Made by a program: the position numbers and the translations under genes. Positions 24,070 to 38,357 of a DNA stretch of 64,000 bases are shown piece after piece (the stretch's first letter is position 1; each line of letters begins with the position of its first letter). The notes under the pieces were generated by a model, which was not told where the DNA came from, searched no databases, and was given only the letters and a program-made list of their open reading frames with translations. Source of the DNA: Amycolatopsis sp. FDAARGOS 1241 (GTDB lineage Bacteria > Actinomycetota > Actinomycetes > Mycobacteriales > Pseudonocardiaceae); the NCBI RefSeq assembly GCF_016889705.1, contig NZ_CP069526.1:3658001-3722000 (forward strand), written 5' to 3'.

Positions 24070-24957
24070 TCACAGCTTGCCTCCTGTCGTCGTCCTCGTC
24101 CTGACGACTCCCGGGTGGGTCGGCATTCGACAACTGGGTCCGGTTTTCCGTGATGGATCCGGCGATCACCGACGCGAAGACACTCAGCGCGACGATCACC
24201 TCGGCCCACAGGAACGCCGTGTAATCGAGCAGCGAGCCGATCGGCGACGGGCGCCGCGTTGCGGAACGCGGCCAGTGCGAACAGGGACGCGGCCATGAAC
24301 CCGAACGCCGGCCACACCAGCCCGCGCCGGCGCGAAATCAGGTGGCGCGCCCCGAGCGCCACCGCGACCGTGATCGCCCACATCACGAACATCATGAACA
24401 GCCCGAACACGAGCACGCTGGTGGTGCGGGTGAGGTGGACCTCCAGGCCGGCGTCGGCGTCGCCGGTGATCGAGAGGCTGAACAGGCTGTCGACCTTGTC
24501 CAGCGTGAGCTGCACCGGCATCGGCTTGCCGCCCAGCACGGCCTCGAACTGGATGCGGCTGTCGTAGCCGTCGAAGGGGTTGTCGGTCACCGCGCCGCCG
24601 GCGAGCGCGATCGGCAGGTCGGTGCTCGCGATGCGTTCGTGGGCGGGGAAGGTGTGGTCGCCGCGCAGGCTCGAGGAGTTCAGCTGCGTGAGGTCCGCCG
24701 CCGGCGCCGCCCCGTCGTCCTCGCCGAGGCTCCCGCGCGGCTGGACGAGCACCCGCACCGTCACCTCCCGCGCGACGGCGTCCACTTTCTGCACCGTGGC
24801 GTACACGTCGACCCGGGTCGGGCTCGTCGGCGCCCACCGAGTGCCACGTGTCGCCCGCCGTGCGCTCCGCCGCGTGCACCCACACCCCGGCCCCCGCCGC
24901 GACGACGATGCCGGCCACCACGACCCCCGCCGTCCACACCGGACCCCGCCACCTCAT
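24070..24957 (-). pseudogene. DUF4436 membrane protein, two frameshifts
   Basis: ATG 24957 opens RWRGPVWTAGVVVAGIVVAAG (an N-terminal membrane helix) and WHSVGADEP, then a one-base shift near 24828 leads to TRVDVYATVQKVD, the start of the DUF4436 extracellular domain, and on to the second helix LFMMFVMWAITVAVALGA and FGFMAASLFALAAFRNAAP. A second shift near 24245 restores the expected ending SPIGSLLDYTAFLWAEVIVAL and a last helix. The end is unclear; a downstream frame (LNLAWQLEHETDRD) may be extra coding sequence. Function is unknown in the family. Confidence 0.65.
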
Positions 24958-25035
24958 GGCGGTGATCGTGGCACCGGGAACGGTGGCGCGCGCGTGCTCT
25001 CACGTCCCCGGGGTTACGGCCGGGTTGAAGGAGAG

Positions 25036-25049
25036 ACGAACCGGTTCGT
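25036..25049. promoter_or_regulatory. 14-bp palindrome, likely TetR operator
   Basis: ACGAACCGGTTCGT is perfectly self-complementary and lies 11 bp before ATG 25061. AACCGGTT cores are common in TetR-family operators, and a TetR gene ends the same transcription unit, so feedback repression is likely. Confidence 0.55.
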
Positions 25050-25060
25050 ATCCTCAACAC

Positions 25061-26119
25061 ATGGCGTTCTTCAGGGTGGCCAAGCGACGGCAGTGGACTT
25101 TCCTGGACCCGCGTGGCGAGCCGTTCCCGTCGATCGGTGTCGCGCACGCGCACGACACGAATCTGCGTTACGGGCACAACCTGGACATCTGGCGGGAACG
25201 CTACGGCGGCGACCGTGCGAAGTGGCTGCGGGACGGGCTCGGCAAGGACCTGCGCGAGTGGGGTTTCACCACCGTCGGCGCGACAGGGGAGTACATCAGT
25301 GGCACCGGGCTCGGCGTGACGGGCATGGTGGTCGACCTGGGCCACGCGGAGGACCTGCCCGGGGTGGAGGTCGCGGAGGCGGGGTTGCCGTACGTGCAGG
25401 CGTTGCGCGTCGCGGAGATCGAGGCGTGGAACGGCTATCCGGCATTCCGCGATCCCCGCTCGGCGGCGTTCGCCGAGTACTGCGATCACCTCGCGCGCAC
25501 GCTTTGCCGGCCGGACGATCCGCTGCTGCTCGGGTACTTCCTGGTCGACGGGCCGGCCTGGGCGGGCCACCCGACGGGCGCGGGCTGGGCCGGGCCGCTC
25601 GCGGAGATCGCCGAGGCGTACTACGCGACGGCCACCGCGGCGATCCGGCGCCACGACCAGAACCACCTGATCCTCGGCGACCGGTACGGCACGAAAGCGG
25701 GCGCACCGGGCGAAGTGCTCGACGCGGCCGCGAAGCACGTGGACGTGCTGTCGGTGCAGACGTTCCCGAAACCCGGCGGCTTGGCCCAAGCGCTGGAGAC
25801 GATCGAGCGCTGGCACACCCGCACCGGCCTGCCCGTGCTGGTCGCCGACACCGGCAACTGGTGCCCGACGCGCCTGAGCCCGCACCGCACCGGCAGCGCA
25901 GGCGACCAGGCCGAGCGCGCCGAGGGCTACGTCCACACGGCCGAAACCCTTGCCGCGCTGGACTGGTGCCTGGGCTGGCATTGGTGCGCGTACGTGGAGA
26001 ACCCGCAGCGCGGCTGGGGGCTCAAGGACCCGTGGGACGAACCGTACGAAGCGCTCACCGGCCCCGTCGCCGAGACGAACCGGCGCCTCGCCGGCGCCTG
26101 GGCGGCCCGCCGTGCCTGA
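25061..26119 (+). CDS. TIM-barrel glycoside hydrolase-like protein (agarase-related)
   Basis: A 352-aa cytoplasmic protein with no signal peptide. The segment DPRGEPFPSIGVAHAHD, the helix around LRYGHNLDIWRERYGG, and LREWGFTTVGATGE resemble the start of agarase-type (beta/alpha)8 barrels, as does DPLLLGYFLVDGPAW, where the Asp is in the expected catalytic region. The second half has HVDVLSVQTFPKP, LPVLVADTGNWCP and a final GWHWCAYVENPQRGWGLKD. Substrate and reaction are not known. It overlaps the downstream TetR gene by 8 bp, so the two are cotranscribed. Confidence 0.65.
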   Translation: MAFFRVAKRRQWTFLDPRGEPFPSIGVAHAHDTNLRYGHNLDIWRERYGGDRAKWLRDGLGKDLREWGFTTVGATGEYISGTGLGVTGMVVDLGHAEDLPGVEVAEAGLPYVQALRVAEIEAWNGYPAFRDPRSAAFAEYCDHLARTLCRPDDPLLLGYFLVDGPAWAGHPTGAGWAGPLAEIAEAYYATATAAIRRHDQNHLILGDRYGTKAGAPGEVLDAAAKHVDVLSVQTFPKPGGLAQALETIERWHTRTGLPVLVADTGNWCPTRLSPHRTGSAGDQAERAEGYVHTAETLAALDWCLGWHWCAYVENPQRGWGLKDPWDEPYEALTGPVAETNRRLAGAWAARRA

Positions 26120-26672
26120 CGAGACCCGCCGCAACCCGCACGTCCACCGCGCCATCCTCGACGCCGCCTGGGACCTCACCGCCGCCGGCGGCTGGGCCGC
26201 GGTGAGCGTCGACGCGATCGCCGCCCGCGCCGGCGTCGGCAAGCGCACGGTCTACCGCTGGTGGCCGAGCAAGGCGGCCGTCGTGCTGGAGGCGTTCCTC
26301 GACCGGGCGCGCGTGAACCCGGTGATCACCCGCGCCACCACCGCCGAAGGCCTGCTGCGCGCCCACGCCCGCCACTTCGTCGACCTCTACGTGGACACCG
26401 AACTCGGCCGCGTCTTCACCGGCCTGCTCGGAGCCGCCCAGCAGGACCCCGACCTCGCCGCCCGCCTCGGCGAGCACTGGTTCGAGCCCCGGCGCGCGCC
26501 TTTGCGCACCTCCACGGAAGCGGCCCTCCCGCCCGGAACCGACGTGGAGTTGTTGCTGGACTTGGTGTTCGCGCCGCTGCACTACCGGCTGCTCACCGGG
26601 CGCCGTCCGCTCGACCACGCGTATGCGGACGCCGTCGTCACCGCGGTCCTGCTCGGCGGCACCGGGAACTGA
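26112..26672 (+). CDS. TetR/AcrR family regulator
   Basis: A 186-aa regulator starting at GTG 26112 inside the upstream gene. The helix-turn-helix is AAVSVDAIAARAGVGKRTVYRWW followed by PSKAAVVLEAFL. The C-terminal ligand domain (residues 65-186) has LYVDTELGRVFTGLLGAAQQDPDLA and the TetR_C-type end FAPLHYRLLTGRRPLDHAYAD. The overlap and the palindrome at 25036 suggest that it represses its own operon. Confidence 0.9.
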   Translation: MPDETRRNPHVHRAILDAAWDLTAAGGWAAVSVDAIAARAGVGKRTVYRWWPSKAAVVLEAFLDRARVNPVITRATTAEGLLRAHARHFVDLYVDTELGRVFTGLLGAAQQDPDLAARLGEHWFEPRRAPLRTSTEAALPPGTDVELLLDLVFAPLHYRLLTGRRPLDHAYADAVVTAVLLGGTGN

Positions 26673-26722
26673 CGGCGTAGGTTGGCGCTCGAGAACCCGA
26701 TTGCCTGATCGACAGGAGTGAC

Positions 26723-27469
26723 ATGCGCAAGGAGAAGGTGGACGTCCCGGCCGGTGACGGGGTCGCCGACTCGTACCTGGTCGTGCCGGACGGCGGGCCG
26801 CACCCTGGGGTTCTGCTGTTCATGGACGCGTTCGGGTTGCGGCCGCGCATCGAGGAGATGGCGGACCGCATCGCGGAGGCCGGCTACGTCGTGCTCGCGC
26901 CGAACCTGCTCTACCGCGGCGGGCGGTCGCCGCAGTTCGACCTTTCGGGGCTGGGCGATCCGGACAAGCGGGGCGAGATCTTCGGCAAGATCATGCCGCT
27001 GATCCAGGCGCTGGGCACGGACAACGCGATCCAGCGCGACGCCGAGAAGTACCTGGATTTCCTGGCCGCGCAGGAGGGCGTCGCCGCGGGGCCGGTGGTG
27101 ATCACCGGGTACTGCATGGGCGGGACGAACGCGCTGCGGGTGATCGAGGCGTTCCCGGACCGCGTCAAGGCCATCGCGGCCTTCCACGCGGGCGGCGTGG
27201 TCACCGACGGGCCCGACAGCCCGCACCTGGGTGTCGGCTCCATCACCGGCGAGGTGTACTTCGGGCACGCCGACCAGGACCATTCGATGTCGCCCGAGCA
27301 CATCAAGACGCTGGAGGCCGCGCTGGACGAGGCCGGCGTCACCTACCGCTCCGAGGTGTACGAGGGCGCGACCCACGGCTACACCATGTCCGACACCGCC
27401 GCCTACAGCGAAGCCGGCGAGAAGCGGCACTGGGACAACCTGTTCGCGCTGCTGGAACGCGTGAAGTGA
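26723..27469 (+). CDS. Dienelactone hydrolase family protein
   Basis: A 248-aa alpha/beta-hydrolase of the dienelactone hydrolase family. The nucleophile elbow GYCMGG gives Cys131, the family's unusual catalytic cysteine; the other triad residues should be Asp in FGHADQDHSMSP and His in YEGATHGYTM. A strong ribosome-binding site (ACAGGAGTG) precedes ATG 26723. The classical enzyme opens dienelactone in chloroaromatic breakdown, but many members act on other lactones or esters. It is monocistronic and ends at a hairpin terminator. Confidence 0.9.
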   Translation: MRKEKVDVPAGDGVADSYLVVPDGGPHPGVLLFMDAFGLRPRIEEMADRIAEAGYVVLAPNLLYRGGRSPQFDLSGLGDPDKRGEIFGKIMPLIQALGTDNAIQRDAEKYLDFLAAQEGVAAGPVVITGYCMGGTNALRVIEAFPDRVKAIAAFHAGGVVTDGPDSPHLGVGSITGEVYFGHADQDHSMSPEHIKTLEAALDEAGVTYRSEVYEGATHGYTMSDTAAYSEAGEKRHWDNLFALLERVK

Positions 27470-27474
27470 GCCGA

Positions 27475-27507
27475 CGGCGGGGTGGCTCGCGAGGAGCCAC
27501 CCCGCCG
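27475..27507. terminator. Bidirectional hairpin terminator
   Basis: A perfect 14-bp stem (CGGCGGGGTGGCTC and its complement) with a 5-nt loop GCGAG separates two convergent genes. No T tract is present. Confidence 0.8.
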
Positions 27508-27512
27508 CGCGG

Positions 27513-27776
27513 TCAGTCCCGGCTGCGGTGGAACAGCATCCGATAGGCGACGAGGATGATCAGCGCGCCGAGGATGGCCAGGCCCCACGTGCGCAGGTCG
27601 AAGAACGTGCCGAGTTGCACGTGGAAGAGCGTCTTGCCGACCCAGCCGCCCACGAAGGCGCCACCGATGCCGAGCAGGATCGTGATGATGCAGCCGCCGG
27701 GGTCCTTGCCCGGCATGAGCGCCTTCGCGATGAGGCCCGCGATCAGGCCCAGCACGATCCAGCTGATGATTCCCAT
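27513..27776 (-). CDS. GlsB/YeaQ/YmgE-type stress membrane protein
   Basis: An 87-aa hydrophobic protein with three membrane helices. IISWIVLGLIAGLIAKALMPG and the glycine-zipper segment LLGIGGAFVGGWVG are diagnostic for the transglycosylase-associated (GlsB/YeaQ) family. These small envelope proteins are induced by general stress; a molecular role is not established. ATG 27776 is 6 bp after a GGGAGGAC ribosome-binding site. Confidence 0.9.
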   Translation of the reverse strand: MGIISWIVLGLIAGLIAKALMPGKDPGGCIITILLGIGGAFVGGWVGKTLFHVQLGTFFDLRTWGLAILGALIILVAYRMLFHRSRD

Positions 27777-28041
27777 GACTGTCCTCCCGGCCGCGGTGCG
27801 GCGTCGTCCTCCGGCGCGAACCGCGCGTTCGTGAGCGCACAGGATGTCAGGCGCCCGAACGGGTGGCGCGCCGAGTGGTCCCGACGTGAGCTGGATCTCA
27901 TCGCCTCCGCCGCGAGACTCCACAGTGGACCGGACCGCGCTGCGCCGACCTCGCTCGATCGGCAGGCGCGGCGAACATCTGGGATCGTGGAGGGAGAACC
28001 AGTCCGGCCACCGCGAGCACGCCGAAGCAGAGGAGCGGTCC
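27777..28041. promoter_or_regulatory. Divergent intergenic region before the ATP-grasp operon
   Basis: This 265-bp segment must hold the promoters for the GlsB-like gene and the ATP-grasp unit. It includes TCCACAGTGGA (27919-27929), one of several copies of this small palindrome in the window. No clear gene is present. Confidence 0.45.
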
Positions 28042-29283
28042 ATGCCCCAGCCCGCACCGGTCACCAAGAATCCCGACAAAGGGTATCTGGCCGTGCTCGG
28101 CTGGAGTCTCAACGCGGTCGAAGCACTCGATCGCTTCGACCGCCGCTACCTCGTGGTCGCGCCGGACTGGGCCGAGGAGTACTGCGCCGAACACGAAATC
28201 CCCTACCTGCCGTGGAACTTCGAGCGGCTCAACGACCGGTCGATGGAGATCGCCGAAACCCTCAAGCGGGAAGGCGTCGACGTCGCCATCCCGCTGTTCG
28301 AGGAGACGGTGGAGTGGGCCGGCGCGATCAACTCCGTGCTGCTGGACAACCCGCGTCTGTTCGGCCAGGCCATGCTGCTGCGTGACAAGGCACTGATGAA
28401 ACGCCGCGCACAGCTCGGCGGCATCCGCGTCGGGATCTTCGAGGAGGCCCACGCGCGCGACGACGTGGTGCGGTTCCTCAAGCGCGTCAACCAGACGCTG
28501 CTGAAGCTCGACGGGGATCCCAACGATCCGATCCACCTCAAGGCGTTCGACAAGGCCGGCTGCCTGGGCCACCGCGTGATCCGCACGCCCGACGAGATCG
28601 ACATGATCCCGGAGGAGGAATTCCCCGTGCTCATGGAATCCCACCTCGATGGCTGGGAGTTCGCCGTCGAAGCGTGGATCCACCACGGGAAGATCAAGTT
28701 CCTCAACATCTCCGAGTACGTCACGCTGGGGTACTCGGTCCTCGTGCCCGCGACACCGGAACTGGAGCGCTACCGGCCGCAGATCACGGCGCAGATCCAG
28801 AAGCTCGTGAAGACGTTCGACATCGAGTTCGGGTTCGTGCACCCCGAGTACTTCGTGACCAGCGACGGCGAGATGTACTTCGGTGAGGTCGCCTACCGGC
28901 CGCCGGGGTTCAAGGTCTTCGAGCTGCTCGAACGCGCCTACGGGTTCAACGCCTACCAGGGCCTCGCCCTGGCCTTCGACCCGAAGACCACGGAGGAGGA
29001 GATCGACGCGTTCTTCCCGCGCGAGGTCGTGGACGCCTCCGGGGTCGCCGGCTGCTTCGGGGTCTATCCTCGGCGCCGGGTCGTGAGCGAACTGCAGATC
29101 CCCGAGGAGACCGAGGACCACGACTACTACGAGTCCCACGACCTCTCGGCTCCGCTGGAGGAAACGGTGACCAAGCGGACCGCGTTCGGCACCCACTGGG
29201 GACTGCTGTACTTCTTCGGCGACGACGCCTACCGCATGCGCGAGGTGTTGAAGAAGCAGGAAGAGCTCGACTTCTACGTCTGA
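28042..29283 (+). CDS. ATP-grasp domain carboxylate-amine ligase-like protein
   Basis: A 413-aa protein with an ATP-grasp layout. The first 100 residues form a preATP-grasp Rossmann-like domain (YLAVLGWSLNAVEAL). LLRDKALMKRRAQLGG starts the ATP-binding part, FPVLMESHLDGWEFAVEA places Glu199 and GWEFAVE at the nucleotide site, and FGFVHPEYFV with YFGEVAYRPPG (Glu282, Arg286) looks like the Mg2+ and phosphate-binding end. The family joins a carboxylate to an amine or thiol through acyl phosphate. ATG 28042 follows GAGGAGCGG. Only 29 bp separate it from the next gene, a predicted cysteine peptidase, which suggests a joint role. The substrate is unknown. Confidence 0.85.
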   Translation: MPQPAPVTKNPDKGYLAVLGWSLNAVEALDRFDRRYLVVAPDWAEEYCAEHEIPYLPWNFERLNDRSMEIAETLKREGVDVAIPLFEETVEWAGAINSVLLDNPRLFGQAMLLRDKALMKRRAQLGGIRVGIFEEAHARDDVVRFLKRVNQTLLKLDGDPNDPIHLKAFDKAGCLGHRVIRTPDEIDMIPEEEFPVLMESHLDGWEFAVEAWIHHGKIKFLNISEYVTLGYSVLVPATPELERYRPQITAQIQKLVKTFDIEFGFVHPEYFVTSDGEMYFGEVAYRPPGFKVFELLERAYGFNAYQGLALAFDPKTTEEEIDAFFPREVVDASGVAGCFGVYPRRRVVSELQIPEETEDHDYYESHDLSAPLEETVTKRTAFGTHWGLLYFFGDDAYRMREVLKKQEELDFYV

Positions 29284-29312
29284 GCACCCCGCGGGAGATC
29301 CGAGGAACGCCA

Positions 29313-31334
29313 GTGAATCCCACCAGCGACGCCAGGGGTGGCGCCACTCTCGCCAAGCGGCTGGCTTCGCTCGACGACGCCGTCCGGGTGATGGCCGAGA
29401 CCCGGGACTTCGGCAAGCACACGAAGCTGCGCCGGGTGCTGGAGGCGCTGCGGCGCGTGCTGCTGCAGCCCGGCGGTGCCGCCGCCGTCCAGGAGCGGGC
29501 GCAGGCCCTGGAGGAAGCCGGCCTGTACCTGGGCACCGACTGGGCCACGCCGGAGATCCTGCTGCCGGCCCTGGTCGGGCCAGGGCTGCACAGCGGCGAC
29601 GCCGACACGGTCGTGATCGAAGCGACCAGCGAGCTGCGGATGCTCGCGGTCGCGCTGGGTGAGTACGAGCACCCGACGCTGCCGGCCGAGGACGCCCGCG
29701 CGTTCCTCTCGCAGGTGCTCGCGATGAACCTGGAACTGCTGTTCACCCCGCCCACCGAGGCCGAGCGGACGTACGAGGGCCGCACCGCGCAGCTCATCCG
29801 CGCCCTCTTCCGCCACCTCGCCGACAGCATCGGCTACGCGAGCGTGCTGGACAAGCTGGTCGAGGAGATCTGGCGGATCCTGCGCCAGCGCCCGATCCAG
29901 GTCGACCAGGTCCAGTCGCTGATCACCCGGATCGCCGTCTACCGCGGCGACCCCGACGTCGACCTGGGCGCGAAGTCGGGCCAGGGCCTCGACCGGCTCA
30001 TCACCAGCCTGTTCGGGACCACCGAGGCGTGCCGGGAGGATCCGGGTTTCGACGTCTTCCGCTCCCGCCTGGAGGCGATGGACGCCGGCGGCCTGCAGTA
30101 CGAGGCGTCCGGTTTCGCCCGGGCGATGCACGACACCGGGCTGGTTTCGCCCTACCACGCGGAGCTGCTGCGGTTCGTGCGCCACGAGGGCGACTACCTC
30201 GTGGCCGAAGCGCTCGGGCTGTCCGACACCGGCCGCAACTGCCTGCTGCGCTACCGCGATCTCGTGCACCAGCTCATCGAGGAGGCGGTGCACCCGCAGA
30301 CCGCGCAGTGCGTCTACGGGCTCGCGCTGCTGCTCGACCGCGGGATCCTGCACGAGCCCCCGGTGGTGCCCGCGCTGTGGCGCCAGCTGTCGCTCACGCT
30401 CGGGCCGGCCGCGCGCGAGCAGCTGACGTCGGTGTTCGGCGCCGAGCCGGACGCGAAGGCACGGCTGACCGCCGGCGTGCTGTCGATGCTGGGCCTGCCA
30501 CTGGGGGTGGGCCAGGGTGACAACCCGACCTGCCAGTCGGCCCGCGCGCTGTCGATGTGGGCGGCCAACGACCCGGACTACCTGTTGCAGGTCGTCGTGT
30601 GGGCCGCGCGCGACGACGAGATCACGATGCACTTCGAGGGGCAGCCGATCTCGTCGCGCGAGACCGAAGGCGGCGTGGCGCGCACACTGCCGACGGACCT
30701 CGATCCCGTGTCGCTGCTGGTGGTGCCCCACCTCGACCGGATCTACGCCGAGATGGGCCGGCGCTGCGCCGACCGGCCCGGTGACCCGCACCGCTGGGTC
30801 AACCCCGAATTCCACGGCTGGTGGGCCTTCCGCGGGTTCCACATCAACGTCGACGTGGCGACCGGCAACCTGATCGACCTCGACGAGTTCCTGCGCCACT
30901 TCCACGCGAGCTACCACCCGGCCTACAACGGCGACCAGCCGCTGATTCACCCGCAGCCGGCCGGGATCGCCGTCACCGACAGCGCGGCGCGCTACGTCGG
31001 CTGGCACGCGATCACGATCCTGCGGGTCGCGCCGGACCCGCAGGACGTGATGCGCGTGTACTTCTTCAACCCCAACAACGACAGCGGGCAGGACTGGGGC
31101 GCCGGCGTGGTGGTGTCCACCTCGGGCAACGGCGAGCGGTTCGGCGAGGCCTCGCTGCCGTTCGATCAGTTCGCGTCCCGGCTCTACATCTTCCACGTCG
31201 ACCCGCTCGAGCACGGCGAACCCGAGAAGGTGCCCGGCGAGGACGTCGCGCGCATCATCGGCTACATCGAGCGCAGCTGGGGCGTCGACCGGCTGCCCGC
31301 GGGGAGCCCGGAGGCTGGGCCGCCCCCTCACTGA
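29313..31334 (+). CDS. Large protein with predicted papain-like cysteine peptidase/amidase C-terminal domain
   Basis: A 673-aa cytoplasmic protein that I do not recognise as a named family. Residues 1-330 are almost all helical (LAKRLASLDDAVRVMA, LEALRRVLLQPGG). The C-terminal 300 residues contain QGDNPTCQSARALSMWA with Cys407 at the start of a helix, WWAFRGFHINVDVATG, then YVGWHAITILRV (His565) and VYFFNPNNDSGQDWG (Asn586/Asn588). This order, Cys then His then Asn, is that of papain-like or transglutaminase-like enzymes. No signal peptide or membrane helix is seen. The ATP-grasp partner lies immediately upstream. A ligase/protease pair may make and break, or mature, a peptide-like bond. The stop overlaps the convergent SDR gene by 7 bp. 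Confidence 0.75.
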   Translation: MNPTSDARGGATLAKRLASLDDAVRVMAETRDFGKHTKLRRVLEALRRVLLQPGGAAAVQERAQALEEAGLYLGTDWATPEILLPALVGPGLHSGDADTVVIEATSELRMLAVALGEYEHPTLPAEDARAFLSQVLAMNLELLFTPPTEAERTYEGRTAQLIRALFRHLADSIGYASVLDKLVEEIWRILRQRPIQVDQVQSLITRIAVYRGDPDVDLGAKSGQGLDRLITSLFGTTEACREDPGFDVFRSRLEAMDAGGLQYEASGFARAMHDTGLVSPYHAELLRFVRHEGDYLVAEALGLSDTGRNCLLRYRDLVHQLIEEAVHPQTAQCVYGLALLLDRGILHEPPVVPALWRQLSLTLGPAAREQLTSVFGAEPDAKARLTAGVLSMLGLPLGVGQGDNPTCQSARALSMWAANDPDYLLQVVVWAARDDEITMHFEGQPISSRETEGGVARTLPTDLDPVSLLVVPHLDRIYAEMGRRCADRPGDPHRWVNPEFHGWWAFRGFHINVDVATGNLIDLDEFLRHFHASYHPAYNGDQPLIHPQPAGIAVTDSAARYVGWHAITILRVAPDPQDVMRVYFFNPNNDSGQDWGAGVVVSTSGNGERFGEASLPFDQFASRLYIFHVDPLEHGEPEKVPGEDVARIIGYIERSWGVDRLPAGSPEAGPPPH

Positions 31335-32047
31335 GCCAGGTAGCCGCCGTCGACGACGAGCTCCGAACCCGTCACGAAGCTGGATTCGTCACTGGCGAGG
31401 AACAACGCGCCGTTCGCGACCTCCTGCGGGTCGCCGGCACGGCCCATGGGCGTCTGGCCGATCACGAACTCGTTGATCTCCGGGTCCTGTGCTTCGGTGA
31501 GCGGGGTGCGGATGAAGCCGGGGTGCAGTGAGTTGACGCGGATGTTCTCGCGCGCGTAGGTGATCGCCGCGCTCTTCGACATGTTGCGCACCGCGCCCTT
31601 CGTCGCGTGGTAGGCGTGCGCGCCCGCCACCGCCACGCTGCCCCAGATCGACGAGACGTTGATGATCGATCCACCGCCGGTGCGCTGCATGTGCGGCACG
31701 ACCTCGCGCATGCCGAGCCACACGCCGGTCTGGTTGATGGCCACGACCTGCTGCCACGACTCGACCGTGAGCTCGTGCAGCGATTCGTAGGCGATCACGC
31801 CGGCGTTGTTGGCCAGCACGTCGACCCGCCCGTGGCGGCCGGTTACCTCGCCCACGACGCGGGCCCAGTCGGCGTCGCTGGAGACGTCGAGGCGGTGGTA
31901 CTCCACGCCGTCGGCGAACCCGTTCGCCTCGCTGCGGCCGGTGGCGATCACGGTGGCGCCTTCGCGGGCGAAGGTGTCGGCGATGGTGCGGCCGATGCCG
32001 CGGCCGGCGCCGGTGACGAGGGCGACCTTGCCCTGCAGTCGGTTCAT
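31328..32047 (-). CDS. SDR family oxidoreductase (alcohol dehydrogenase)
   Basis: A 239-aa classical short-chain dehydrogenase. The cofactor motif TGAGRGIG is at residues 12-19, LANNAGVIAYES follows, the catalytic Ser is in INVSSIWG and YHATK gives Tyr and Lys. HPGFIRTPLTEAQ and the ending VTGSELVVDGGYLAQ are standard. The motif order suits NAD(P)-dependent oxidation of a secondary alcohol. It diverges from the esterase-BVMO operon across a 212-bp region with a GTGTC/GACAC inverted repeat; oxidation of a cyclic alcohol to the ketone used by the monooxygenase is a natural guess. Confidence 0.9.
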   Translation of the reverse strand: MNRLQGKVALVTGAGRGIGRTIADTFAREGATVIATGRSEANGFADGVEYHRLDVSSDADWARVVGEVTGRHGRVDVLANNAGVIAYESLHELTVESWQQVVAINQTGVWLGMREVVPHMQRTGGGSIINVSSIWGSVAVAGAHAYHATKGAVRNMSKSAAITYARENIRVNSLHPGFIRTPLTEAQDPEINEFVIGQTPMGRAGDPQEVANGALFLASDESSFVTGSELVVDGGYLAQ

Positions 32048-32130
32048 GGTTCCTCGCTCGAAGCTCGAATGGTGTGCACCCAGCTTCGCCCGTCGCGGGG
32101 CGGCCCGGTCGCTCAGTGTGAGACGGCGAT

Positions 32131-32147
32131 GTGTCATTTTGCGACAC
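32131..32147. promoter_or_regulatory. Inverted repeat between divergent catabolic genes
   Basis: GTGTCATTTTGCGACAC has arms GTGTC and GACAC around 7 bp, in the promoter region between the SDR and esterase genes. It resembles the more perfect site at 40846, suggesting a common activator of Fis-type DNA-binding specificity. Confidence 0.5.
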
Positions 32148-32259
32148 CTCGTGGCAGGCGCCGCCGCTGTGGTGATGCTGGGGAAGACCGGCGGCCGGAC
32201 AGGTGCCGGAAACCCCTGCGACCTCGCTGCTGAAGCGGGAATTCCCTCCAGGAGAGCCC

Positions 32260-33177
32260 ATGACAGAGCTCGTGCCACCGCCCGGGCCGACGGATCCGCT
32301 CGCCGAGATCTACGCCGGGTGGGCGGTCGAGATGAACCGCCACCCGGACATGTCGGTGGAGCTGCTGCGGATCGTCTTCGACGACTGGCAGCGCGCGACC
32401 GCGGAGCCCGAAGGCGTGACCTACGCCCACACCGAACTCGGCGGCGTGCCGGGCGTGTTCGTGACACCCGAGGGCGCCGACGGCGACCAGGTGCTGCTGT
32501 TCTTCCACGGTGGCGGGTTCGCCCTCGGTTCCTCGGCCAGTCACCGGAAACTCGCCGGCCACCTCGCGAAAGCCTGTGGTGCCACGGCATTCGTCGCCGA
32601 CTTCCGCCTCGCACCCGAGCACCCGTACCCCGCGGCGCTCGAGGACTGCGTCAAGGCCTTCGACGCACTGGTGGCCCGCGGTCACCGCGTCGCGGACATC
32701 ACCCCGGTCGGCGACAGCGCCGGCGGCAACCTCGCCGTGGCCACCGTGCTGAAGCTGCGCGACCTCGGCCGCCAGCTGCCCTCGCAAGTCATCACGCTCT
32801 CGCCGTGGCTCGACATGGAAAACACCGGCACCACCATCGAGACCAACGACGACACCGACTTCCTCATCGCCCGCGAGGGCCTGCAGGCCAACATCGACCG
32901 CTACCTCAGTGGCGGCGCCGACCCCACCGACCCGCTCGTGAACCCGCTCTACGCCGACCTCTGCGGCTTCCCGCGCCTGTACATCAGCGCTGCGGACACC
33001 GAATCGCTCTACGAGGACAGCGTGCGCTTCCACGCCCTGGCGGCCAAGTGCGGCGTGGACGTCACCTTCGTCGTCGGCGAGGGCATGCAGCACGTCTACC
33101 CGTTCCTGGCGGGCCGCCACCCGCGGGCGGACCAGGAGATCCGGACCATCGCGGACTGGTACCGCGCGGGCCGCTGA
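32260..33177 (+). CDS. HSL-family alpha/beta hydrolase (esterase/lactonase)
   Basis: A 305-aa hormone-sensitive-lipase-type esterase. The oxyanion motif HGGG is at residues 83-86, FRLAPEHPYPAALEDC is typical of the family, and GDSAGG gives Ser153. The Asp should be in YISAADTESLYED and the His in GEGMQHVYPFL. ATG 32260 is preceded by AGGAGAG. As first gene before a Baeyer-Villiger monooxygenase it probably hydrolyses the ester or lactone that the monooxygenase forms, as ChnC does in cyclohexanone degradation. Confidence 0.9.
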   Translation: MTELVPPPGPTDPLAEIYAGWAVEMNRHPDMSVELLRIVFDDWQRATAEPEGVTYAHTELGGVPGVFVTPEGADGDQVLLFFHGGGFALGSSASHRKLAGHLAKACGATAFVADFRLAPEHPYPAALEDCVKAFDALVARGHRVADITPVGDSAGGNLAVATVLKLRDLGRQLPSQVITLSPWLDMENTGTTIETNDDTDFLIAREGLQANIDRYLSGGADPTDPLVNPLYADLCGFPRLYISAADTESLYEDSVRFHALAAKCGVDVTFVVGEGMQHVYPFLAGRHPRADQEIRTIADWYRAGR

Positions 33178-33206
33178 CCTTTTCCACCACGCAAGAAGGG
33201 ACCACC

Positions 33207-34832
33207 ATGCCGTCCACACAGGACACCAGCTTCGACGCCATCGTGATCGGCGCCGGTTTCTCGGGCCTCGCGATGCTGCACCACTTCAACCAGATCGGCC
33301 TGCGCACGGTCGTGCTCGACTCCGCGGACGGCGTCGGCGGCACCTGGTACTGGAACACCTACCCGGGCGCGCGCACGGACAGCGAGTTCTACTACTATTC
33401 GTTCTCCTTCTCCAAGGAGGTCCGCGAGGAGTGGACCTGGAAGGAGCGCTACCCGGCGCAGCCGGAGGTGAAGGCGTACCTGGAGTTCGTCGCGCGCCGC
33501 CTCGACCTGTACAAGGACATCCGCTTCGGCACCACCGTCGAGAGGGCGGTGTACGACGAGGCCGCCAACGCCTGGACCGTCACCACCGCCGACGGACAGG
33601 CGCTCACCGCGACGTATCTGGTCAGCGGCATGGGCGTGCTGTCCGCCCCGAACCTGCCCGACATCCCGGGCGCGAGCACGTTCGCCGGCGAGAGCTACCA
33701 CACCTCGCGCTGGCCGCGCGACCGGGAGGTCGACCTTCGGGGCAAGCGCGTGGGAGTGATCGGGCTCGGCGCTTCGGGGGTGCAGCTCGTGCCGGTGGTC
33801 GCCGAGACCGCGAGGGAGCTGTTCGTGTTCCAGCGCACGCCGAACTACGTCGTCGCGAGCTCCAACCGCGAGGTCGACGAGCAATGGATGGCCCAGGTCA
33901 AGGAGAACTACGACGAAAGCTTCGAGCGGGCCTTCGACCACGGGTTCGCCGTGCCGTTCGTGAAGCCCGAACTCGGCGCGAAGGACGCGAGCCCCGAAGA
34001 GCGCGAGCGCGTGTTCGAGCAGGGCTGGGCCGAGGGCGGCTTCCACTTCATGCTCGAGACGTTCAACGACCTCGCCGTGGACCAGGAGTCCAACGACCAC
34101 GCTTCGGACTTCATCCGGCGCAAGATCCGCGAGACGGTCACGGACCCGGCGACCGCGGAACTGCTGTGCCCCAAGGACTACCCGTTCAACGGCAAGCGCC
34201 CGCCGGGCGGCCACGGCTACTACGAGGCCTACAACCGCGACAACGTCCACCTGATCGACATCAAGTCCACGCCGATCGACGAGATCACGCCGGAGGGCAT
34301 CGTCGTCGGCGGGCAGCTGTACGAACTGGACGTGCTCATCTTCGCCACCGGCTTCGACGCGATGACCGGCACGCTGACCCGCATCGACATCGTCGGCCGC
34401 GGCGGCGAGGTCCTGCGCGAGCACTGGGCCGACGGCATCAAGACCAACCTCGGTGTCTCCGTGCACGGTTTCCCGAACTTCTTCATGATCCTCGGGCCGC
34501 AGACGCCGTACGCGAACCTGCCGGTCGCCATCCAGGCCGGTGTGGGCTGGGTCGCCGACGCCGTCGAGTACGCCCGCGAGCACGGCATCGAGCGGCTCGA
34601 GTCCACGGCCGAGGCCGAGCAGGAGTGGGCCGACGAGGTCCGGCGCGCGGGCTCGGCGACGATCATGGCCAGCGGCGCCAAGGCCAACGCCTGGTTCATC
34701 GGCGCGAACATCCCGGGCAAACCGCTCGAGTTCAACGTCTACATGGGCGGCGCGGACGCGTACTTCCGCCGCTGTGCGGAAGTCGCCGACGCCGGCTATC
34801 CCGGCTTCGTGTCCGAGACCGCCAACGCCTGA
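33207..34832 (+). CDS. Flavin-dependent Baeyer-Villiger monooxygenase
   Basis: A 541-aa class B flavoprotein monooxygenase. FAD binding is by GAGFSG (15-20), GVGGTWYWNTYPGAR is the conserved cofactor region, the Baeyer-Villiger fingerprint FAGESYHTSRWP (159-170) matches FxGxxxHxxxWP exactly, and GLGASG (186-191) binds NADPH. ATGFDAMTG near residue 395 and the late GPQTPYANLPVAIQ are also typical of cyclohexanone-monooxygenase-like enzymes. It inserts oxygen beside a ketone to give an ester or lactone, using NADPH and O2. The neighbouring esterase and dehydrogenases supply and remove its substrate and product. Confidence 0.93.
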   Translation: MPSTQDTSFDAIVIGAGFSGLAMLHHFNQIGLRTVVLDSADGVGGTWYWNTYPGARTDSEFYYYSFSFSKEVREEWTWKERYPAQPEVKAYLEFVARRLDLYKDIRFGTTVERAVYDEAANAWTVTTADGQALTATYLVSGMGVLSAPNLPDIPGASTFAGESYHTSRWPRDREVDLRGKRVGVIGLGASGVQLVPVVAETARELFVFQRTPNYVVASSNREVDEQWMAQVKENYDESFERAFDHGFAVPFVKPELGAKDASPEERERVFEQGWAEGGFHFMLETFNDLAVDQESNDHASDFIRRKIRETVTDPATAELLCPKDYPFNGKRPPGGHGYYEAYNRDNVHLIDIKSTPIDEITPEGIVVGGQLYELDVLIFATGFDAMTGTLTRIDIVGRGGEVLREHWADGIKTNLGVSVHGFPNFFMILGPQTPYANLPVAIQAGVGWVADAVEYAREHGIERLESTAEAEQEWADEVRRAGSATIMASGAKANAWFIGANIPGKPLEFNVYMGGADAYFRRCAEVADAGYPGFVSETANA

Positions 34833-34852
34833 AGCAGCGGGGAGGGATCCAC

Positions 34853-35614
34853 ATGCCCCGCTTGGCGGGCAAGACGGCGATCGTCACCGGTGCGTCGTCG
34901 GGCATGGGCCGGGCGACCGCGGAGCTGTTCGCCGCCGAGGGCGCTCAGGTCGCTCTCACGGACGTCGACGCGGGCAAGGGGGCGGCGGCCGCGGCCGAAA
35001 TCGGGGCCGCCGCCCGCTTCTGGCCCGTCGACGTGCGCGACGAGGGCTCCATCGAGCGCGCGTACGGCGAGATCGTGGCGTACTTCGGCAAGCTCGACGT
35101 GCTCGTCAACTGTGCCGGGGTGATCGGCGTGGACAAGCCGACGCACGAGGTGACCGAGGCCGAGTGGGACCAGCTCTTCGCGGTCGACGTGAAGGGCGTC
35201 TTCTTCTCGACCAAGCACGCGGTCCCGCACCTCATCGCGAACGGCGGTGGCAGCATCGTCAACTACTCGTCGATCTACGGCCTGGTCGGCAACGACGAGT
35301 TCACGCCCTACCACGTGGCCAAGGGCGCGGTGACGATGCAGACCAAGCAGGACGCGGCGATGTACGGCAAGTACGACATCCGCGTGAACTCGGTGCACCC
35401 GAGCACGGTGCTCACGCCGCTGGTGGAGGGCATAGCCGCCGCGTACGAGGGCGGGCTGCCCGCGTACGAGCGCATGATGACCGCCAACCAGTCGCTGCGC
35501 CGGCTCGGCCGCCCGGTCGACGTCGCCTACGCCGTGCTCTACCTCGCCTCTGACGAAGCCTCCTGGGTCACCGGGGTGAACCTCCCCGTCGACGGCGGCT
35601 ACACCGCGCGCTGA
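34853..35614 (+). CDS. SDR family oxidoreductase
   Basis: A 253-aa classical SDR with TGASSGMG at residues 12-19, VLVNCAGVIGVD, the catalytic Ser in VNYSSIYG and YHVAK. The substrate loop VHPSTVLTPLVEGIAAAYEGG is longer than in the divergent SDR, so the two probably act on different alcohols. The ending VTGVNLPVDGGYTAR is standard. A GGGGAGGGA ribosome-binding site precedes ATG 34853, 20 bp after the monooxygenase stop. It belongs to the same operon. Confidence 0.92.
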   Translation: MPRLAGKTAIVTGASSGMGRATAELFAAEGAQVALTDVDAGKGAAAAAEIGAAARFWPVDVRDEGSIERAYGEIVAYFGKLDVLVNCAGVIGVDKPTHEVTEAEWDQLFAVDVKGVFFSTKHAVPHLIANGGGSIVNYSSIYGLVGNDEFTPYHVAKGAVTMQTKQDAAMYGKYDIRVNSVHPSTVLTPLVEGIAAAYEGGLPAYERMMTANQSLRRLGRPVDVAYAVLYLASDEASWVTGVNLPVDGGYTAR

Positions 35615-35637
35615 GCGCGCCGAGAAAGGACGACACC

Positions 35638-37128
35638 ATGACCGCACTGGCCGAATCCCCGGCCGGGCTCTTCGCCGGGCACGAGGTCCCGCTCGGCTTG
35701 TACCTGGGCGGCGAGTGGACGCACCCGGGAAAGACGTTCGAGGTGCTCAATCCCAGCACCGGCCAGGTTCTGGCCGAGGTCGCCGACGGCGGCCCGGACC
35801 ACGCGCTGGCCGCGCTCGAGCACGCCGTCGCCGCGCAGGACGCGTGGCGGCATTGGTCCCCGCGCCGCCGCGCGACGCTGTTCCACCGGGCCCACGCGCT
35901 GCTCCTCGAGCGGGCGGACGCGTTCGCCGACGTGATGGTGCTCGAGAGCGGCAAGCCGCGCGCCGAAGCAGCGGGGGAGTTCGCGTTGTCGGCGGGCTTC
36001 TTCCTCTGGTACGCCGAGCAGATCGCGCACCTGCACGGCACCTTCGCACCCGGCTCGCCCGGCGGCTACCGCGTGGTGACCACGCACCAGCCGGTGGGTC
36101 CGAGCTTCCTCGTGACGCCGTGGAACTTCCCGCTGCTGATGGTGGCGCGCAAGGGCGGCGCGGCGCTGGCCGCCGGCTGCACGGCTGTGGTCAAGTCGGC
36201 GAAGGAAACTCCGCTGACCGCTGCGCTGTTCGTCAAGACGCTGCACGACGCCGGGTTCCCGCCCGGTGTGGTGAACCTCGTCCACACCAGCGACTCCGCG
36301 GCCGTGTCCGACGTGGTGCTCGCCGACCCGCGGCTGCGCAAGATCAGCTTCACCGGCTCGACCGGCGTCGGCAGCCTGCTGCTGGCCAAGGCGGCCAAGC
36401 ACATCGTGAACTCCTCGATGGAGCTCGGCGGTGACGGCCCGTTCGTGGTGCTCGACGACGCCGACGTGGACCTGGCCGTGCGCGAGGCCATCGCGTGCAA
36501 GTTCCGCAACGCGGGCCAGGCGTGCGTGGCGGCGAACCGGATCATCCTGCACCGCGCCATCGCCGCGGAGTTCACGGAGAAATTCGTGGCCGCCACGAAG
36601 GAGCTCAAGGTCGGCGACGGGTTCGACGACGGTGTCGACGTCGGCCCGATCATCACGCCCGTGCAGCTGGAGCGCGTGCAGTCCCTCGTGGACACCTTCA
36701 CCGCGGCGGGGGCCGAGGTGCTCGCCGGTGGCCGGCGCGTCGAGTCGGTGGGTAACTTCTACGAGCCGACCGTGCTGCGGTTGAGCGACGCGGATCCCGC
36801 GCTGTGCAACCAGGAACTGTTCGCACCGGTCGCCGCTCTGTTCACCGTGGACTCCGTGCGCGAGGCGCTGGCCTTCGCCAACGACACCAGCTACGGGCTC
36901 GCGTCGTACCTGTTCACGAAGGACCTGTCGCGCGCGTTCGCGATCTCCGAACGGCTCGACTTCGGCATGGTCGGGATCAACCGCGGCATCATGGCCGATC
37001 CGGCCGCCGCGTTCGGCGGGGTCAAGGAGTCGGGGCTGGGCCGCGAGGGCGGGCACGACGGCATCTACGAGTTCCTGGAGCCGAAGTACCTCGCCGTGAC
37101 CGTGAACGAAGAGGAGGTGGGCGAGTGA
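35638..37128 (+). CDS. Aldehyde dehydrogenase (succinate-semialdehyde dehydrogenase-like)
   Basis: A 496-aa NAD(P)-dependent aldehyde dehydrogenase. VTPWNFPLLMVARKGGAALAAG is the cofactor region, ELGGDGP holds the general base Glu262 and NAGQACVAANR the nucleophile Cys296. The gene follows the SDR by 23 bp and is translationally coupled to the iron alcohol dehydrogenase (GTGA overlap). In a lactone pathway it would oxidise the omega-oxo acid to a dicarboxylic acid, as ChnE does. The resemblance is closest to the GabD group. Confidence 0.92.
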   Translation: MTALAESPAGLFAGHEVPLGLYLGGEWTHPGKTFEVLNPSTGQVLAEVADGGPDHALAALEHAVAAQDAWRHWSPRRRATLFHRAHALLLERADAFADVMVLESGKPRAEAAGEFALSAGFFLWYAEQIAHLHGTFAPGSPGGYRVVTTHQPVGPSFLVTPWNFPLLMVARKGGAALAAGCTAVVKSAKETPLTAALFVKTLHDAGFPPGVVNLVHTSDSAAVSDVVLADPRLRKISFTGSTGVGSLLLAKAAKHIVNSSMELGGDGPFVVLDDADVDLAVREAIACKFRNAGQACVAANRIILHRAIAAEFTEKFVAATKELKVGDGFDDGVDVGPIITPVQLERVQSLVDTFTAAGAEVLAGGRRVESVGNFYEPTVLRLSDADPALCNQELFAPVAALFTVDSVREALAFANDTSYGLASYLFTKDLSRAFAISERLDFGMVGINRGIMADPAAAFGGVKESGLGREGGHDGIYEFLEPKYLAVTVNEEEVGE

Positions 37129-38357
37129 GCACCGAAACCCTGGGGCTGTTGCGCCAGCCGAAGACGGTCCTGTTCGGACCGGGCCGCCGCGCCCAGTTGC
37201 CGTACCTGCTGAAACCGCTGGGCGCCACGGTGCTCGTCTGCACGGACGAGCGGATGGCCGGCAGCGCCGAGTTCGCCGGCATCCGCGACTCGCTGACCGC
37301 CCACGGGCTCGACGTGCGGGTGTTCCCGCGTGTCGAACCGGACCTGCCGCGCGAGAACGTCGAAGCGCTGCTCGCCGAAGTCGACGGCGGCGAGATCGAC
37401 GTGGTGCTCGGCGTGGGCGGCGGCAGCTGCCTCGACTTCGCCAAGGTCGCGTCGATCATGGTGCGACGCGGTGGGAACGTCGCGGACCTCTACGGGGAGA
37501 ATCTCGTCGAAGGGCCGGGCTTGCCGCTGGTGACCGTGCCGACGACGGGCGGCACCGGGGCGGAGGTCACGTGCATCGCGGTGGTCTACGACGCGGACAG
37601 GGGCATGAAGGTCGGTGTCGCGAGCCCGTACCTCGAGCCGTACGCCGCGGTCGTCGATCCCGAGCTCACGCTCACCTGCCCGCCCGGCCTGACCGCGGCG
37701 ACGGGTGCGGACGCGTTGTCGCACCTGGTCGAATCGTTCACCGGCCGGGAGAAGCACCCGGACCCCGAACACCTGCACCGGCACCTCTACGCCGGCAAGA
37801 ACGTGCTCACGGACATGTACGCGCTGCGCGGATTCACGCTGCTCAACAGCTCGCTGGAGCGTGTGGCCCAGGACCCTTCGGACCTGGCCGCGCGCACCGA
37901 CACGATGCTGGGCGCGTTGAGCGCGGGCATGGCCATCAACACCGCGGGCACGGCGGGCGCGCACGCCATCCAGTCGCCGATCGGCGCGCTCACGCACACC
38001 TCGCACGGCTTCGGCGTCGGCGCGCTGCTGCCATACGTGATGCGCTTCAACCTGCCGGTGCGGGAGGCGGAGTTCGCCGAGATCGGCGTGGCGTTCGGGA
38101 TCACCGATCCGGCGCTGTCGCAGACCGCACGGGCGCACGCGGCGATCGAGCGCATGGAGGAGATCCTCGGCGCGCTCGGCGTGCCGCTGAACCTGCGCGA
38201 CCTGGGTCTCGAACCGGACCAGTTCACCTACGTGGCCGAGCAGGCCATGTTGGCCACGCGCTTGACGGCCAACAACCCGCGCGACCTGAGCGAGGCCGCG
38301 ATCGTCGAGATCCTCAAACGCGGGTACGCCGACGACCGCACGTGGTGGGAACTGTGA
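37125..38357 (+). CDS. Iron-containing alcohol dehydrogenase
   Basis: A 410-aa group III alcohol dehydrogenase. The NAD-binding GGGS is at 98-101 (VLGVGGGSCLDFAK), PTTGGTGAEVT follows, and metal ligands are Asp196 and His200 in GADALSHLVESF plus histidines in ALTHTSHGFGVGALLP. The start is GTG 37125 inside the aldehyde dehydrogenase stop. The family oxidises primary alcohols or reduces ketones; here oxidation of an omega-hydroxy acid to its aldehyde fits the cluster. No frameshift or unusual codon use is seen. Confidence 0.92.
   Translation: MSTETLGLLRQPKTVLFGPGRRAQLPYLLKPLGATVLVCTDERMAGSAEFAGIRDSLTAHGLDVRVFPRVEPDLPRENVEALLAEVDGGEIDVVLGVGGGSCLDFAKVASIMVRRGGNVADLYGENLVEGPGLPLVTVPTTGGTGAEVTCIAVVYDADRGMKVGVASPYLEPYAAVVDPELTLTCPPGLTAATGADALSHLVESFTGREKHPDPEHLHRHLYAGKNVLTDMYALRGFTLLNSSLERVAQDPSDLAARTDTMLGALSAGMAINTAGTAGAHAIQSPIGALTHTSHGFGVGALLPYVMRFNLPVREAEFAEIGVAFGITDPALSQTARAHAAIERMEEILGALGVPLNLRDLGLEPDQFTYVAEQAMLATRLTANNPRDLSEAAIVEILKRGYADDRTWWEL

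Follow-up and report, generated by a model that had tools for sequence, protein, structure and literature searches.

A linked gene pair encoding an ATP-grasp ligase-like protein and a putative papain-superfamily cysteine enzyme in actinobacteria and gammaproteobacteria

In the fused protein glutathionylspermidine synthetase/amidase (GspSA), an ATP-grasp ligase and a papain-like (CHAP-type) amidase make and break the same amide bond. Related arrangements of separate proteins have been described. The Anbu operon consists of genes for an ATP-grasp protein, an alpha-E protein, a transglutaminase-like protein and Anbu, and a role in peptide synthesis or processing has been proposed for it, unconfirmed (PMC6376114, PMC5666114). 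The RloABC operon of Pseudomonas includes an ATP-grasp protein and a transglutaminase-like protein, and in the RimK/RimB system the ATP-grasp ligase adds residues to a protein and RimB is a separate protease (PMC12239564). Tubulin is modified by ATP-grasp ligases (PMC4431377), and vasohibin is a papain-like enzyme with a C-H-S triad (PMC10318531). Vasohibin acts as a detyrosinase. Among graspetide relatives, peptidase-linked ATP-grasp branches without precursors have been reported (PMC8939145). Here we describe a pair of genes, an ATP-grasp ligase-like gene (gene 1) followed by a gene for a putative cysteine enzyme (gene 2), in a 64,000-nucleotide stretch of the 9.8-Mb genome of Amycolatopsis sp. 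FDAARGOS 1241 (contig NZ_CP069526.1, positions 3,658,001 to 3,722,000; hereafter, the window). The combination of an ATP-grasp protein with a transglutaminase-like or papain-like partner is of an already known kind, although the present pair differs from the described examples; the first-pass annotation of this DNA, which knew of no described system with such a pair, thus overstated its case in view of the Anbu operon, RloABC and the fused GspSA. No description of this gene family itself was found in searches of open-licence PMC papers.

28042..29283, + strand: gene 1, ATP-grasp carboxylate-amine ligase-like protein, 413 aa, ATG start; Pfam ATP-grasp_4 and L-amino acid ligase profile matches
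29313..31334, + strand: gene 2, putative papain-superfamily cysteine enzyme with a helical N-terminal region, 673 aa, GTG start

We favour, with a probability of roughly 36%, the reading that the pair is a self-contained, horizontally spread cytosolic unit in which an amide bond formed by the ligase is cleaved by the cysteine enzyme, with reversible modification of a target as the outcome. The ligase is strongly constrained between actinobacteria and gammaproteobacteria (73–92% identity) yet dispensable, most sampled genomes being without the pair, and this combination is unusual. Since the unit is small (3.3 kb) and no accessory genes were found, its reaction can be sought directly, and an amide-based modification or a family of cysteine enzymes not seen before may thereby come to light.

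Linkage and co-occurrence of the two genes

Comparison with eight relatives revealed purifying selection on both genes (nonsynonymous divergence, dN, 0.02–0.11; synonymous divergence, dS, 0.32–0.68), with a slow dN in gene 1 (0.02–0.05) and a faster one in gene 2 (0.04–0.11); gene 1 and gene 2 are genes and not chance open reading frames (ORFs). At an expect value (E) of 0.001, with about 8000 candidates scored in each search, 2627 clusters resembled gene 2 (2627 to 2787 over the protein searches made) and 1768 resembled gene 1, a count in which other ATP-grasp families may be included. Among the best 120 of thousands of homologues, the gene 2 relatives that bear a name are annotated as hypothetical or uncharacterized, the closest of them being from Amycolatopsis, and those of gene 1 are called carboxylate--amine ligase, ATP-grasp domain-containing protein, acetyl-CoA carboxylase biotin carboxylase subunit family protein or hypothetical protein.

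The window copies of the two genes lie on the same strand with a gap of 29 bp, as the first-pass annotation had described. All 80 fetched loci, the best 80 of at least 579, have gene 2 immediately after gene 1 (one, L038, is clipped by a contig end); the gene 2 match begins 15–134 bp beyond the ligase stop, and a stop codon separates the two matches in all 80, so that the genes are not fused. Sixty Amycolatopsis genomes comprised 23 with both genes and 37 with neither, gene 1 being counted as a strong match (three of the 37 non-carriers show weak ATP-grasp matches only), and the genes are adjacent on one strand in 23 of 23 carriers. Analysis of 369 genomes from the class of Oceanimonas revealed 14 gene 2 matches, one of which (in G119) is an 18-bit fragment without gene 1; a long gene 2 relative is present in 13 of the 369, and the ligase accompanies it in 13 of 13. 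These 13 exhibit ligase-first (8), cysteine-enzyme-first (2) and convergent (2) arrangements, as well as one with the genes about 57 kb apart (G635). At locus L157, where the cysteine enzyme comes first, about 1.4 kb lies between the genes. Linkage kept despite rearrangement argues for a shared function, and together with the strict co-occurrence it supports one pathway, the direction of which these data do not tell. Comparison of these genomes supports the view that gene 1 and gene 2 constitute a functional unit.

Additional copies were observed in some genomes. An intact second ligase, 91% identical and with no adjoining cysteine-enzyme gene, is located at L121 9624–10865 (− strand) in G440, which also has a full pair. 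Second, divergent copies of gene 2 (51–53% identical) are located at L154 8898–10889 (+ strand) and L155 593–2581 (− strand), with no ligase match in the fetched stretch; the genomes, G518 and G626, also carry the pair.

Catalytic-type residues of the two proteins

28846..28899, + strand: putative metal/ATP site of the ligase, Glu269 (28846–28848), Glu282 (28885–28887) and Arg286 (28897–28899), from alignment to 3vot/4wd3; codons verified
29269..29280, + strand: near-invariant ligase C-terminal tail, Asp-Phe-Tyr-Val
29346..30497, + strand: helical N-terminal region of gene 2, residues about 12–395 (AlphaFold2 model)
30498..31232, + strand: putative catalytic region of gene 2, residues about 396–640
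30513..30533, + strand: QGDNPTC, Gln401 (oxyanion-hole position by analogy) to Cys407 (nucleophile by analogy); codons 401 and 407 verified
30783..30797, + strand: Asp491-Pro-His493-Arg-Trp495, resembling the transglutaminase His motif by hhalign; evidence for a rival active site
31005..31007, + strand: His565 codon (GWHAIT), verified
31068..31100, + strand: Asn586 (31068–31070; codon verified, context FFNPNND), followed by Trp595-Gly596 (31095–31100)

Pfam ATP-grasp_4 matched the window copy of gene 1 at E 2.2e-4 with 21.3 bits, under the curated cut-off of 27, and, with E 1 as the limit, each of 15 aligned relatives also gave a match (best, 5.5e-6). In a profile search, the solved structures closest to gene 1 were the L-amino acid ligases 3vot and 4wd3 (E 0.005–0.006), and a HMMER alignment placed HPEYFVTSDGEMYFGEVAYRPPG of gene 1 over the Glu, Glu and Arg of both, in agreement with the ATP-grasp identity assigned by the first-pass annotation. 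Glu269, Glu282 and Arg286 are invariant in 22 of 22 rows spanning actinobacteria and gammaproteobacteria, across which the identity to the window copy is 73–92%, and presumably have the catalytic role that such residues play in ATP-grasp enzymes generally. Because the AlphaFold model of gene 1 is poor (mean predicted local distance difference test score, pLDDT, 47), the ATP-grasp fold rests on sequence; gene 1 probably encodes an ATP-grasp enzyme that joins molecules with ATP. The ligase ends in -DFYV or -DFYI in 91 of 91 tallied copies (L072, a split match, being omitted from the tally), and a more divergent set contained one -DYYV among 22 rows; -DFYV is also present in L121, the extra copy without a partner. 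Protein termini are usually variable, and the near-invariance of this tail therefore points to some role, so that the C-terminus -DFY(V/I) probably does something. The tail resembles the hydrophobic-Tyr-any (HbYX) docking tails of proteasome activators; its retention in gammaproteobacterial copies too speaks against the 20S proteasome as its partner.

Cys407 (DNPTCQSA), His565 (GWHAIT) and Asn586/588 (FFNPNND) of gene 2 are located where the first-pass annotation had placed them, and codons 407, 565 and 586 were verified. Gln401, Cys407, His565 and Asn586, as well as the Trp595-Gly596 that follows Asn586, are invariant in 84 of 84 aligned rows (9 of 92 loci were dropped from this alignment because the match was split or the tblastn span contained a stop). 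A more divergent set gave the same result in 26 of 26 rows, in which Gly402, Pro405 and Thr406 are likewise invariant. With papain motif forms as given in PROSITE, the ordered Cys and His pattern also occurred in 3 of 768 other ORFs and in 121 of 20,000 shuffles of the gene 2 protein, and the same pattern with Asn and WG added occurred in none of either (0/768 and 0/20,000); 20 of the 26 divergent rows satisfied the strict papain Cys and His pattern. Gene 2 thus has both the papain order of Cys, His and Asn and a Gln six residues ahead of Cys407, and because of this residue order and the Gln at −6 the papain type is favoured over the transglutaminase type. From its residues, gene 2 likely encodes a cysteine enzyme of the papain superfamily.

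The AlphaFold2 model of the region ahead of these residues contained helices only, with pLDDT mostly 70–95 and a dip at about 181–250; the first ~390 residues are predicted to be all-helical, in line with the long helical region proposed earlier, and loose matches of this region were to helical-repeat proteins only. Within residues 407–640, the model gave weak VIA-align matches to Pd_dinase of Parabacteroides (6w4n, 3pw3, 5wdk and 5wdl), which we take to belong to family C1B. Foldseek of the model against the PDB and viral models returned nothing at E 0.001, and a search against sequences of solved structures returned nothing usable, the best row (E 0.021) being a piece of NusA over the helical part. 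The window copy of gene 2 had no Pfam or NCBIfam match at E 10 and no match at E 1 in PADLOC (models to 2023) or PHROG. Pfam searches with gene 2 relatives one by one (22 and 24 members) yielded chance-level rows only (best E, 0.032 and 0.028, respectively), and matches to PF01841 (transglutaminase core) and CHAP were absent in both sets. The first-pass suggestion of a papain or transglutaminase triad order stands for the order of Cys, His and Asn, to which the Gln at −6 is added, whereas neither family was recognized by Pfam at E 10. Hydropathy analysis predicted no membrane segments in the product of gene 1 or gene 2.

Genomic context and spread

No third gene is common to more than 9 of the 80 loci, as counted with a crude ORF caller for ORFs of at least 70 aa; the top two clusters reach 9, one of them being short-chain dehydrogenase-like and without the window. 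Neither blastn nor tblastx matched the 600-bp flanks of the window pair to those of any other locus in a set of 81; related loci can share flanks, with up to 13 others matching the upstream 600 bp. Comparison with window positions 24500–34500, in which five candidates per genome were scored, revealed that 20 of 22 other Amycolatopsis carriers share, at the place of the pair, only the segment from about 28019 to at most 31346; in G481 and G458, flanks are also shared with the window. Only the two genes are common between lineages.

The family is scarce in even samples: of 149 genomes from across the phylum 2 carry it, and of 150 from the order 5 do (window genome included). The pair was found in genera such as Streptomyces and Rhodococcus. 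An 84-row tree of gene 2, built by a quick method in one run with a midpoint root, placed 14 Streptomyces-family rows as one group within Pseudonocardiaceae rows and the Oceanimonas row, on a long branch, in the part of the tree that contains Nocardia. This pattern points to transfer of the pair between families and phyla, which we regard as well supported, and the two-gene unit seems to move as a cassette. Protein distances of gene 1 and gene 2 correlate (r 0.90, 84 rows), as expected because the genes are linked.

Searches of mobile-element collections revealed no match to the pair in phage records, and in IMG/VR 12 stretches fit a pattern, with no relative among them. The plasmid collection contained one record for gene 2, from Halomonas sp. 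PA16-9, with two further rows at E 6; for gene 1 it contained the same record and 10 records of less than 60% identity. This Halomonas record (L085, NZ_CP040452.1), which alone among the plasmids carries the pair, measures 1.83 Mb, and the neighbours of the pair in it are those of the genome copy L147; it may be a piece of chromosome. Its gene 2 match is in two pieces near the gene end.

Directly upstream of the window pair, the DNA at about 27500–27800 has counterparts elsewhere in many Amycolatopsis genomes and includes a small − strand ORF; we assume the ORF to resemble a GlsB/YeaQ-type membrane protein. Downstream, at 31400–38400, ORFs resembling, by eye, a short-chain dehydrogenase, an alpha/beta hydrolase, a flavin monooxygenase, an aldehyde dehydrogenase and an alcohol dehydrogenase form a run that, among 12 regions compared, is common to G481 only. 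The neighbours in 16 gammaproteobacterial loci look, again by eye, like housekeeping or metabolic genes.

Candidate functions and comparison with known systems

ATP-grasp ligases form an acyl phosphate that is then attacked by an amine, and papain-superfamily enzymes attack an amide with a thiol; this established chemistry suggests that a bond made by one enzyme of the pair is broken or transferred by the other. The first-pass proposal that the pair could ligate and cleave, or mature, a peptide-like product or protein tag is supported in part, as regards a functional unit with conserved catalytic-type residues; a peptide or tag as the product is conjectural. On the favoured reading, for which we infer the fold and activity of gene 2, a shared product, the direction of the steps and reversibility, gene 1 would be an ADP-forming ATP-grasp ligase that joins a carboxylate and an amine. 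Gene 2 would act as a cysteine-dependent amidase or peptidase of the papain superfamily, the papain type being the likeliest, with Cys407, His565 and Asn586 as catalytic residues and Gln401 serving the oxyanion, and its long helical region may hold the substrate. The two enzymes would act in turn on one amide-linked product, the bond being made and then cut, and a conserved target, either a small molecule or a protein, would thereby be reversibly modified. The slow change of the ligase and the faster change of its partner are consistent with contact between the ligase and a target or partner that is under constraint.

Several observations weigh against this reading. The gene 2 model has low pLDDT at residues 396–406, 545–565 and 587–611, and a match to Peptidase_C1 or another clan CA Pfam family was absent at E 10 in the 22 and 24 gene 2 members. 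An hhalign comparison of residues 385–640 with seven Peptidase_C1 rows (one of which looks wrong-frame and two of which are without the Cys part) placed GQGDNPTCQSARALSMWA over the catalytic Cys helix, in register, with a score of 17.6 (E 0.13); this score is at chance level, because it was equalled in 7 of 60 column shuffles, in 8 of 60 block shuffles and by the reversed profile (17.7). Four further His residues (473, 493, 535 and 628) are invariant in the 26 rows, and the choice of His565 as the catalytic His is therefore one that we infer. The refuting condition set by the first-pass annotation, genomes in which the genes are not neighbours, applies in part: adjacency held in the 80 loci and the 23 Amycolatopsis carriers, whereas in G635 the ligase is about 57 kb from the gene 2 relative (L158 8114–10306, − strand; 42–44% identity), and there are four additional lone copies, two of gene 1 (G440, G712) and two of gene 2 (G518, G626).

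Our second choice, a possible one, is two-step biosynthesis, in which the ligase would make a dipeptide or other amide and the cysteine enzyme, as a transpeptidase or acyltransferase comparable to phytochelatin synthase, would transfer the acyl group to yield a small metabolite and no reversible mark. The nearest solved ligase structures are indeed small-molecule L-amino acid ligases, the patchy distribution and transfer match an accessory metabolite, and no gene for a macromolecular target is linked. However, a transporter, regulator or further enzyme is shared by no more than 9 of the 80 loci, and the conservation of the ligase over two phyla (73–92% identity to the window copy) is unusually high for an enzyme of specialised metabolism. 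Rather unlikely, in our judgement, is that gene 2 is not a cysteine enzyme at all and is a scaffold for the ligase, with Cys, His and Asn in structural or metal-binding roles. The protein's membership of no sequence family, the weak and noisy fold matches, the low-confidence active site and the several other invariant His residues agree with such a scaffold, whereas the residue order, the Gln at −6, the contexts of His and Asn, their invariance at 42% identity and the alignment of a single cysteine protease, represented by four structure entries, with the appropriate part of the gene 2 model speak for an enzyme.

An extended version of the favoured reading appears doubtful. Here the pair would be a mobile write/erase system for a peptide-like mark in actinobacteria and gammaproteobacteria, the ligase adding the mark and a new papain-superfamily enzyme removing it. 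The -DFY(V/I) tail of the ligase would be where its partner docks or the first substrate on which the partner acts, and the system would correspond, in bacteria, to tubulin tyrosine ligase and vasohibin.

The transglutaminase triad consists of Cys, His and Asp. A gene 2 of this type, with Cys407, His493 and a third residue such as Asp514, would move or cross-link acyl groups and would not hydrolyse a papain-type substrate; the pair would in that case be related, as a two-gene form, to the ATP-grasp/transglutaminase neighbourhoods described in the reports above. Comparison of residues 385–640 with 13 transglutaminase rows by hhalign gave a score of 22.9 (E 0.0097) over 22 columns (residues 486–507), in which ADRPGDPHRWVNPEFHGWW was set over the transglutaminase His motif and Asp-Pro-His493-Arg-Trp fell on Asp-Ala-His-Ala-Trp (DAHAW); no column shuffle (0/60) scored as high, and Asp491, His493 and Trp495 are invariant in 26 of 26 rows. 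On the other hand, the score is borderline, being reached in 5 of 60 block shuffles, the aligned columns stop short of Cys407, PF01841 was unmatched in the 22 and 24 members, and Asp514 differs in 4 of 26 rows (Asp590 is Glu in 1 of 26). According to PMC10318531, the transglutaminase-like cluster is mostly without the oxyanion element, whereas papain-type clusters retain it, and the invariant Gln at −6 therefore suits the papain type better. On this balance we consider a transglutaminase-type gene 2 improbable.

Lower still we rank an anti-phage or conflict system, that is, a mobile two-gene unit in which a cysteine protease is restrained or armed by the ligase. Such a system would agree with a patchy unit of only two genes that has moved between genomes into changing contexts, but PADLOC and PHROG gave no match at E 1, no phage record and no IMG/VR locus was found, the plasmid collection contributed a single record, conservation is above what is generally the norm for conflict genes, and the neighbours in the 16 gammaproteobacterial loci look housekeeping or metabolic. 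Maturation of a ribosomally synthesized and post-translationally modified peptide, with the ligase closing rings in a precursor and the cysteine enzyme removing the leader, is already strained and the least probable of all, since the most widely shared third ORF of at least 70 aa reaches only 9 of 80 loci and, in the set of 81, no other locus resembles the window pair in its 600-bp flanks (blastn, tblastx), although a precursor might be encoded away from the pair. In favour of this reading, ATP-grasp ligases and peptidases are typical of graspetide loci, including branches without a visible precursor (PMC8939145).

Returning to the proposed pair of bond-making and bond-cutting enzymes, known systems resemble it to different degrees. 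The Anbu operon shares with it an ATP-grasp protein adjoining a transglutaminase-like protein; it has four genes, including those for a proteasome-like subunit and alpha-E, in contrast to two here with no third neighbour in more than 9 of 80 loci, and gene 2 differs by its papain-position Asn, its Gln at −6 and its long helical region. The transglutaminase of RloABC is inactive and membrane-bound and is accompanied by a secreted aspartic protease, whereas gene 2 has an invariant Cys and no predicted membrane segment. RimB is an aspartic protease, unlike the putative cysteine enzyme here. Tubulin tyrosine ligase and vasohibin are similar in that a ligase is combined with a separate protease; vasohibin is eukaryotic. 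The L-amino acid ligases BL00235 (3vot) and 4wd3 have the Glu, Glu and Arg of gene 1, with about 120 of 413 positions aligned, and we know of no cysteine-enzyme partner for them. By analogy, GspSA is the clearest mechanistic parallel, from which the present pair differs in consisting of two separate genes and in having no CHAP match in Pfam. The pair is set apart from these known systems by its two-gene make-up, its helical region, its combination of Asn and Gln, and a gene 2 for which no matching family was found.

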